From: Fibrobacter sp. UWP2
Lineage (GTDB): Bacteria; Fibrobacterota; Fibrobacteria; Fibrobacterales; Fibrobacteraceae
Direction: 5' to 3'
NCBI RefSeq assembly: GCF_900141705.1
Contig: NZ_FQYM01000005.1
Coordinates: forward strand, 1-64,000
Length of the DNA: 64,000 nt
This document shows, piece after piece, positions 40,633 through 44,085 of the stretch. How positions within the stretch are numbered: the stretch's first letter is position 1; the number at the start of each line of letters is the position of its first letter. The notes under the pieces are model-generated. The model was given only the letters and a program-made list of their open reading frames with translations, searched no databases and had not been told where the DNA came from. The position numbers and the translations under genes are program-made.

Positions 40633-43321
40633 TTGTTTAAAAAGTTCATTTTTTTTCGCCCTGGTTGCATTTTCGAGTGCGTCTTTCGCTCTTTCCGTGG
40701 AGACGAAGGACGAACAGGCCGCGTCGGCGAACATGGAGGTTCTTCGCTTGCGGGTGGTGAACGACGGACCTCTCGACTTGAGGAACGTGAAAATCAAGTA
40801 CTACATCCGGAATGGTCTGGCTGTCGACGTGTATGATTCCGCTGGGAATGCGGTGTCTGTTGACACAGTGGATTCGGAAACCCTCGCTTTGACCGTAAGT
40901 GTGGATGTACTCCCTGTAGGAGTATTCCCCTATGAAGCTGGCATGTGCTTCGGCATCCATGGAGGCGACTGGCTCCCGTATGACAAGTCGGGGAACTACA
41001 GCTATACAGGCAACGTTGTCTTCGGGTTGAATGCAAATGTGACAGTGTACGTCGGGGACTCCCTTGCTTATGGTACGCCGTTTGGCGGCGCATTTCCAAA
41101 AACATCTGAAGCGAACCCGCTTACGTTGGTCCCCGATACGAAAATACTTATCAATCCTGGAGATTCAGTCTCTTTTGCATGGCATTACGTTCCCGATGCG
41201 GAAAAATACAGATTGACGATTCTCTCTCTGGATTCTGAAAAAGTTTATCAAGAAGAATTGTATGGACTTCGAAAGGCTGTTCAGCTGAGCCCGGGGAATT
41301 ATTTATGGAATGTACAAGCTGGCTCCTCAGAGGCATTGTCGCAAAAAAATAATAATGTAATCAACTACAATCCTTTGACCGTGGCGGATTTCCATTCGCT
41401 TCATATTACAAAGCAAAAGTATCTCGGCGTACCTTCGGTTTCCGGTCGAAAGGACACTCCTATGCTTGTTGTAGGGTATGGGGAATATGCTGATTTGAGA
41501 GAATGGGACAGGCCTCATTTGAATCACCCAGGACTGGATGAATTGGAATCTGATGTCTGTTGGGCGATTGCCCTAAAAAAACTCAATGCCTTTTATGGGG
41601 GAACGCTTTCTTTGGACGAGATAATTTTTCATAAGAAAAAATCGGCCGTAGAACGGATAAATGTTTTTCTTTTTTTAATAAATGCTGCATCTGGCATATC
41701 TGAATATGACATACAGCAAGTTCTTGACTCAACAAAATCCTATTCAATGGGAAGTAAATTAAAAAATCCGCTAATATCAGAAAATGCAAAAAATTATATC
41801 GATGGAAATAATATATTGCTTATTCAGATGAATTGGGAAAGCGGCGAAGGACACTATATGCTTATTGATGGATATGTTGAAAGCGAGGAAGAAACTTTTT
41901 TTAGATACGTAAACACAGACAATTACGGCAGTTACGGTCTGTTTGACGAATCTTTTTTGCAGACAATAGGTTCTTATTTTGTAATTGAACCACTTGATAA
42001 TGTTCGCAACATGGATTCCACTCTGGGCGTTGTAAAATACGATATGTACAATACGTGGACGGAATGGAAAGATTCCGATGGGGATGGTCTCACCGATTTC
42101 GACGAAATCGAACGATTTCATACCTGTTCGGGCTTGCCCGCATACGACCCGGACTATTGTGTCGGTGTTGACCCGCAGGATTCCGATGGAGACGGCGTGG
42201 ACGACAAGGATGAAATCTATTCGTACACTATTCTGGAAAAGAGCCGGTTGAACTTGAATTCTGCATACCCGGGACCGTTTGATTTAAATCAAATGCAGGT
42301 GATTGCGGGGATTGAAAGCGAGTATATGGCTGATGTGGATGGGGACGGCCTGCGGGCCGAACTGGACAAAGATTCCGACGGGGATTCACTACTAGATGGA
42401 GTTGATCCCAATCCATACAATTATGATTTCCTTGGTGCTGTTTCGCTGGAAGAAAATGAACTTCCTGAAGATGTTGTCTTATATGCAAGAGAGCGACTAA
42501 GAGTAAACGACGGATGTACTTGCATTGGACAATATAGCGTTCCATGTGTGTATGCCTCAGAAGATACAGTCTTTAATTATGGCGTAACGTTAGGTGTAAA
42601 TACATCCGGAGCCTTGGTACACTCAAAAAATAATGTTTTTATTCAAAGTAACAGAGCGAATACATTTTTTGTGAATTTCTACGGAGACGAAAAACTAAGA
42701 GCGGACCGCCAGGATGAAAAAGCTACGATTGTTCAATACAAAGATCCGAAACATTGGCCTTGGAAATTGAACATAAACCTGCCCGTGTTTGACGAGGGTG
42801 ATTCCGTTCTGGTTGTGCAGCGGGGTGACACCTGTTACTTGGATGATGGAGCTCACTTAAAAGAGTTGAAAGTTGAATCTGGCGGTGTTGTGTATTTCCC
42901 AGCCGGGAACGTTTACATAGGATATTTGCAACTGGATGCCGGGTCGTTAATCTTCCCTAAACCTCTTTACGAAAGTAACCTTTATGTGAAAAGGAATATG
43001 ATATGGAATAGCTCTTTTCCCGTATATCCCAAATTTGAACCTAAAGATTTGGCTGAGAATTTTAGACTATTTTATTATGGAGATCGAAGGATATTTATAA
43101 ACGCGAATTGGTTCGGGACGATAATTGCACCGGATGCTGCGGTAGTTTTAGGGCAAACGCAAAAAAAGAGTATGTACGGCCAGGTTTATGCCAAAGAAAT
43201 TGTGGTACACCAAGTTACTGATTTGCACAATGTCCCATTCAATCCGACATATTCAAATGAAAAAACAGAATATGTGCTAGATTCAGAAATTTTTTTAAGA
43301 AGTAAAGAAGGCTGCTTATGA
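40633..43321 (+). CDS. Secreted CBM3-like / C39-peptidase-like / calcium-repeat protein; split signal peptide
   Basis: The long frame starts only at GTG 40697 (874 residues), but a signal peptide is split over two frames: TTG 40633 (GGGG 9 bases before) begins MFKKFIFF, and after a run of eight T (40649-40656) the other frame continues ALVAFSSASFA into the long frame. Seven T would join them. Domains: a CBM3-like sandwich (~10-120; 'NVKIKYYIRNG', 'GIHGGDWLPYDKSGNYSYTG'), a C39/papain-like peptidase (~260-430; 'SDVCWAIALKKLNA', 'GEGHYMLIDGY'), thrombospondin-3-type calcium repeats (~455-600; 'DSDGDGLTDFDE') and a C-terminal 'FGTIIAPDAAVVLGQ' beta domain. The DNA is AT-rich against its neighbours. 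Probably surface-bound to polysaccharide; the protease role is inferred. Confidence 0.75.
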
Positions 43322-44085
43322 AAAAACTGCTGTTTTCGCTATCGTTTTTATTTGTGGCAGATGTTATTGCCGTCTGTAATAATCAATACGTCGGAGAAAT
43401 TGTAGAGTTTTTGGATAGCTCTATATGGTATAATAATGATGGAGGGGCTTTTCTCCATGGTTTTCCCACTTTGGTTAATGGGGAGGTTTCTTACTTTCTT
43501 GAAGATGGATATAATTGCGAGCAAAAGGAATCAAAGCGAAGTTTTTTGGATTCAAATAACGCTTTTTTATATCGGAGACAAGATTCATATTCGCAAATGC
43601 TTAGCGTTGTAGTTCTCGACGCTTCGACTTTTCTGCCCGGCGATATTTTTAGAGATGAATTTCTGCATTGGCAGCGGTGTGGAATGTTAAGTTTATCCTA
43701 TGAAGAGGCCGATTCCGTAGTAACGCCTTTGGTTAAGGCTATGAATGAGTATTTTACTGAAGAGGATAACAGCGGGGAATTCAGTTCACAATTTTTTCGC
43801 GCTACACCGGACTATATTGGTTTGTCAAAACAAATTAATCAGTGGATGGAACAATCCTGTGAAGCGGCTCCTTTACCTCAATCAAGTTCCGTTTCTCATT
43901 GTCAAATTGTTTTTATGAATGGCCTAATCCAAATTCCCCCGGAATTGCAGGGCAAGCATTATTTTATGTTCGACTTGAACGGACAGACGCTCCAGAGCGG
44001 AAAATTGGAACAGAATGTCACTCTTCCTCGCCATCCGGTCATCTTGAAGATCGATGGGCAACGGGAAATTTTCATCCGGAATTAG
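43318..44085 (+). CDS. Secreted protein, partner of the C39-like protein
   Basis: 255 residues; its ATG overlaps the previous stop (ATGA), so it is translationally coupled. Signal peptide ~1-19 (MKKLLFSLSFLFVADVIA). Several cysteines ('AVCNNQY', 'YNCEQK', 'QRCGMLSL', 'QSCEAA') may pair in the envelope. The last ~50 residues ('HYFMFDLNGQTLQSGKLEQNV...VILKIDGQREIFI') resemble a short type-9-type C-terminal sorting strand set. No known family for the core. Same AT-rich composition as the gene before it. It could be a substrate, inhibitor or chaperone of the putative protease. Confidence 0.7.
   Translation: MKKLLFSLSFLFVADVIAVCNNQYVGEIVEFLDSSIWYNNDGGAFLHGFPTLVNGEVSYFLEDGYNCEQKESKRSFLDSNNAFLYRRQDSYSQMLSVVVLDASTFLPGDIFRDEFLHWQRCGMLSLSYEEADSVVTPLVKAMNEYFTEEDNSGEFSSQFFRATPDYIGLSKQINQWMEQSCEAAPLPQSSSVSHCQIVFMNGLIQIPPELQGKHYFMFDLNGQTLQSGKLEQNVTLPRHPVILKIDGQREIFIRN

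Follow-up and report, generated by a model that had tools for sequence, protein, structure and literature searches.

A run of eight T splits the signal peptide of a putative secreted peptidase in Fibrobacter sp. UWP2, most likely through ordinary slippage

In the 64,000-nucleotide stretch of contig NZ_FQYM01000005.1 of Fibrobacter sp. UWP2 that was analyzed here (hereinafter the window), the reading frame of a gene for a predicted secreted peptidase is broken within the signal peptide at a run of eight T on the forward strand (T8, 40649-40656). The frame break appears to be real and correctly read, with ordinary slippage as its most likely origin, and its interest is modest unless mixtures are seen in sequencing reads. 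In our judgment, T8 is probably a recent slippage indel in an otherwise intact gene, and we infer that the allele would be able to revert and is probably leaky. The simplest cause is replication slippage: an indel in the longest homopolymer among the codons for the signal peptide would cut off the h-region from the start and the n-region. Most ribosomes of the sequenced clone would then make a 67-residue dead-end peptide, and the exported peptidase would be scarce or missing; with the rest of the gene intact, reversion could occur at the rate usual for T8, and slippage of RNA polymerase (U8 to U7) may still yield some exported protein. If this scenario is correct, one base change, itself reversible, has (mostly) stopped a gut Fibrobacter clone from exporting one cellulose-targeted peptidase, and the peptidase gene would be miscalled as unsecreted by annotation pipelines.

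Direct reading of the sequence places a TTG start codon (40633-40635) upstream of the run; the frame that opens there encodes MFKKFIFFRPG... and ends after 67 residues with a stop at 40836. The frame of the 874-residue protein, free of stops from 40613 on, reads FVWGHLSCLKSSFFFALVAFSSASFALSVETKDEQ... and contains no ATG, GTG or TTG before GTG 40697; in it, FALVAFSSASFA followed by LSVETKDEQ leads into the 874-residue protein (Table 1). The positively charged n-region, hydrophobic h-region and AxA-like cleavage site that make up a Sec signal peptide when they lie in one frame are split over two frames in the window copy. This is the arrangement given in the preliminary description (TTG 40633 with GGGG ending nine bases 5' of it, MFKKFIFF, a frame shift at T8, and ALVAFSSASFA running straight into the long protein in the second frame), and both the sequence and the frame reading bear it out. 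The accompanying statement that a T7 tract would unite the signal peptide holds, but T7 is not unique in this: when tract lengths of 5 to 11 were tried, T7 joined the two frames, as did T10, and no other length. T8 is the most likely but not the certain site of the indel, with one base gained or two lost; a plausible signal peptide would also result if the indel lay in the A5 run (40639-40643). The start at TTG 40633 is supported by the paralog in the same genome, which has GAGG, nine bases and TTG at the equivalent place. TTG 40618, which aligns with an upstream ATG of the paralog, shares the frame of TTG 40633, and therefore the conclusion of a frame break does not depend on the choice of start.

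Table 1. Features of the peptidase locus, with positions in the window
Feature	Position	Strand	Basis
Signal peptide 5' part: TTG start, MFKKFIFF (alternative in-frame TTG 40618)	40633..40656	+	GGGG upstream; paralog has GAGG-N9-TTG
T8 run, likeliest indel site (+1 or -2)	40649..40656	+	A5 run 40639-40643 is the alternative
Signal peptide 3' part in the 874-residue frame, ALVAFSSASFA followed by LS	40657..40696	+	Paralog has SFALSVETKDEQ in the equivalent place
67-aa peptide encoded out of frame by the T8 allele as it stands	40633..40836	+	Frame reading
Peptidase body P0001, 874 codons, uninterrupted	40697..43321	+	No stops; residues 1-862 share 49% identity with the G028 copy
CBM3-fold (cellulose-binding module), residues 1-132	40697..41092	+	Foldseek 3zqx E 1.4e-5; VIA Z 15-16, rmsd 1.9-2.6
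Papain-like (staphopain-fold, C39_2-like) peptidase domain	41402..41989	+	Invariant C288, H386, N406; PF13529 in relative L005; staphopain C Z 11.3
DxDxDG thrombospondin-3-like acidic repeats	42071..42406	+	Weak TSP3_bac matches in relatives
Ice-binding-like / choice-of-anchor A adhesin domain	42449..43237	+	VIA Z 16.5 to 4nu2; NCBIfam TIGR04215 sub-threshold
Small partner gene, likewise encoding a signal peptide	43318..44085	+	Peptidase stop overlapped by its ATG; several relatives have a similar partner behind the peptidase

The paralog (G000:C21, where G000 denotes the genome of the window) has a related upstream region and reads MFGRRFILAIVLFFVNMSFALSVETKDEQ from the equivalent TTG in a single frame. 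Given that the paralog and nearly all of about 36 relatives, including G028, G007, RUG11387 and G025, carry a continuous signal peptide ahead of the conserved motif VETxDEQ, the signal peptide appears to be ancestral, and the window copy to have lost its continuity through a real lesion rather than to be a wrongly called gene. The claim that the signal peptide of a secreted, peptidase-like protein is split here is thus supported by the homologs and by the paralog. Initiation at GTG 40697 was rejected because the Val-Glu that it begins lies within VETxDEQ, and the well-resolved relatives all start upstream with a signal peptide. Near-cognate start codons were sought in the 874-residue frame as well; none lies 5' of T8, and the first CTG follows the run, within the h-region.

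The product, P0001, relatives of which are present in 28 of the 61 genomes searched, is predicted to be a cellulose-binding, probably surface-attached papain-like peptidase. Its presumed peptidase activity is suggested by fold matches, by a Cys-His-Asn triad (C288, H386 and N406) that is invariant across 12 members, and by relative L005, which passes the Pfam cut-off for Peptidase_C39_2 (PF13529) missed by the window copy. The fold matches come from a model of the full-length protein (pLDDT 72), whereas a separate model of the peptidase domain (pLDDT 55) was left unused. In the full model, residues 236-431 match staphopain (Z 11.3 to 8oig, 153 residues, rmsd 2.6), and residues 585-847 match bacterial ice-binding domains (Z 16.5); the CBM3 beta-sandwich was recovered by both Foldseek and VIA, although the Pfam cut-off for CBM_3 (PF00942) was missed, the sole match being a sub-threshold one in the paralog. 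Thus, the window domain resembles staphopain and Peptidase_C39_2 in its predicted fold and in its invariant Cys, His and Asn but differs in its location between the CBM3 and ice-binding-like domains, as well as in falling below the Pfam cut-off. The staphopain fold also prompts the idea, by analogy, that the small partner gene (43318-44085) might encode a staphostatin-like inhibitor.

The preliminary description left three causes of the frame break open, namely phase variation, transcript slippage and an assembly error; the present analysis favors a slippage frameshift and weakens the case for dedicated phase variation, given that the tract is not conserved, its length is at chance level and mismatch repair is intact. 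Under an assembly or sequencing error, the true tract would be in frame and the gene normal; this would fit a gene in which T8 is the only lesion, a single-base change in a homopolymer being a classic error. The genome assembly, however, is 3.23 Mb in 72 contigs and 100% complete, the locus lies within a 136-kb contig, and the contig statistics resemble those of a short-read assembly, in which T8 would normally be called correctly; the published isolate set, if this genome belongs to it, was sequenced mainly by Illumina (PMC6291624). Systematic assembly indels were looked for in a 456-kb sample of the genome and were not found: the frame is kept at 72 of the 75 coding runs of six or more bases (mostly 6-mers), and the remaining three are normal gene junctions, leaving no run with a frame break. 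On these grounds, an error appears unlikely. A copy from another strain of the species was sought in 111 genomes from this bacterial family, in plasmids and in viral contigs, and none turned up.

The T8 run itself is at chance level in this genome: the window contains 10 overlapping T8 matches against 8.7 expected, and A or T runs with a length of exactly eight number 52 in the 456-kb sample. The break at such a run is out of the ordinary: among the signal-peptide-like open reading frames in the same sample, 161 are intact and one, the window gene, is broken at a run, the other listed candidates having been set aside because they have normal starts downstream of the run. We further surveyed 1.2 Mb of Fibrobacter loci, a sample enriched for this peptidase family in which additional listed candidates were judged spurious by eye. 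Where the longest run does not exceed seven bases, there are 297 intact signal peptides and no genuine broken case; where it is at least eight, four are intact and two are broken (those of the window and of G011), both in this peptidase family. Breaks at runs of eight or more rather than seven or fewer are what is expected if long runs are indel hot spots.

Decay is common in the peptidase family, and single indels are found at long runs. One copy (L041) has stops and deletions, and those of G109, G085 and G088 have single stops. In G011, the MKQLLILLF frame enters VVPAFASDFFVETLDEQ only across a T8 run within the signal peptide (L007:258-265); given that the frame of this copy breaks again near residue 260 and that an IS30-like transposase ORF (L195:60-914, G011:C25) ends just upstream of it, it looks decayed. 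In the homolog from F. intestinalis ATCC 43854, the change of frame coincides exactly with a G8 run (L035:4160-4167), around residue 75-88; G121 carries the same contig and so does not provide independent support. The breaks at T8 in G011 and at G8 in F. intestinalis are suggestive, but mutation hot spots alone suffice to explain them. The clear decay of these five copies (L041, G109, G085, G088 and G011) would favor the possibility that the window gene, one of several paralogous peptidase genes, has taken an early step toward permanent loss, an alternative that overlaps with the slippage allele preferred here and differs solely in what happens next. We consider it extremely improbable, as the 874-codon body contains no second lesion and retains its catalytic residues.

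Another scenario is that selection maintains the T run as a contingency tract at which slipped-strand mispairing toggles export of the peptidase, as the CTCTT repeats of the Neisseria opa genes do. The likeness to Opa is one of position, with an indel-prone repeat in the leader-peptide codons that would decide the export of a surface protein (PMC3960869); in addition, the protein is predicted to be surface-associated and substrate-binding, and in three family members the frame is lost at homopolymers of eight bases (T8 in the window and in G011, G8 in F. intestinalis). The opa genes, however, contain many CTCTT pentamers and switch at about 1e-3 per cell per generation (PMC3960869), whereas the window gene has one short T8 of chance-level length, no variants of which were observed. 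Thus, a simple repeat is present exactly where the frame changes, as in contingency genes, but it neither exceeds chance nor is kept in homologs. In a synonymous-codon control across the family, one run of at least eight bases was observed against 0.91 expected, so no excess indicative of selection for the tract was detected at this length; for runs of at least seven, the figures are 9 and 3.55, with three of the nine coming from one lineage. The lack of conservation of the tract among homologs and the outcome of this control argue against a selected switch, as does the decayed appearance of the G011 copy with its second frame break. Furthermore, MutS and MutL are present in the genome with open frames, and mutation of A/T runs is taken to be about five-fold rarer than that of equally long G/C runs (PMC2430213); an unusual switching rate is therefore not expected. 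A selected phase-variation switch is therefore unproven, nothing found here showing a dedicated on-off device, and we regard it as distinctly unlikely for the window gene. Equally doubtful is the broader proposition that the family of cellulose-binding secreted peptidases comprises contingency genes in which homopolymer slippage switches export or production, to which the T8 here, the T8 of G011, the G8 of F. intestinalis and an in-frame G9 of G028 could be assigned. If it were true, the homopolymer breaks would mean that a key fibre degrader hedges its bets with surface peptidases, and would be a case of phase variation in a phylum of fibre-degrading gut commensals for which our full-text literature search found no paper describing it in Fibrobacter.

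The tract could also be bypassed during expression, with transcript slippage (U8 to U7) or a +1 ribosomal shift at UUU-UUU-C routinely yielding the full pre-protein. Sites of this kind are often homopolymers of eight or more (PMC3711429), E. coli RNA polymerase recovered about 10% of reporter signal through deletion on T8 (PMC6260861), and re-pairing from UUU to UUC for a +1 shift is conceivable. At eight bases, the window run reaches the length at which the E. coli enzyme slips but not the nine from which selection against slippery A/T runs is mostly evident (PMC1088944). Programmed sites are conserved across homologs, whereas this tract is not, the run being missing from the paralog and from most relatives, which read through ordinary continuous frames. 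A programmed +1 ribosomal shift is unlikely given that the tract is followed by CGC, which this genome uses more than any other Arg codon, so that no hungry A-site arises, and -1 frameshifting on a U-rich heptamer was rejected because its direction is wrong, +1 or -2 being needed. Routine recoding accordingly appears very unlikely, whereas transcript slippage, listed as a cause in the preliminary description, is plausible, by analogy with the E. coli figure, as a leak of some product from the T8 allele.

Two described systems are comparable in anatomy. In tssM of Citrobacter rodentium, a homopolymer likewise parts two frames of one functional protein, but the tract is 11 A, with measured frameshifting of about 20-25% (PMC4256274), whereas the window gene has 8 T that are not conserved, and any slippage there is a prediction. 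In the 'pseudo pseudogenes' of Baranov et al. (2005), an otherwise intact gene is similarly broken only at an A/T run, but in those cases the calls were made on runs of nine A or T and sister sequences were available (PMC1088944), whereas here the run is of eight and there is no sister strain. The window gene is therefore Opa-like in position and similar to the slippage cases in anatomy, and it lacks the conservation of the tract that was tested for both.

Several other homopolymers were encountered in this analysis. The G9 of G028 (L188:2986-2994) belongs to another member of the family and lies at about residue 805 of 1083, and in F. intestinalis ATCC 43854 a G11 is located 3' of the partner genes of the peptidase (L035:8973). 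The genome of the window contains a G17 (G000:C14:43575-43591) and a G12 (G000:C29:26120-26131); its poly-G tracts were considered as contingency loci and dismissed, as most of the 16 tracts with at least eight G are intergenic or adjacent to GC-rich hairpins. In G121 (F. intestinalis), there are 87 overlapping G8 matches, with runs up to at least G14, which are candidate contingency loci; one long poly-G (C28:11292-11305; L191:2293) is located at the junction of ORFs of 253 and 558 aa.
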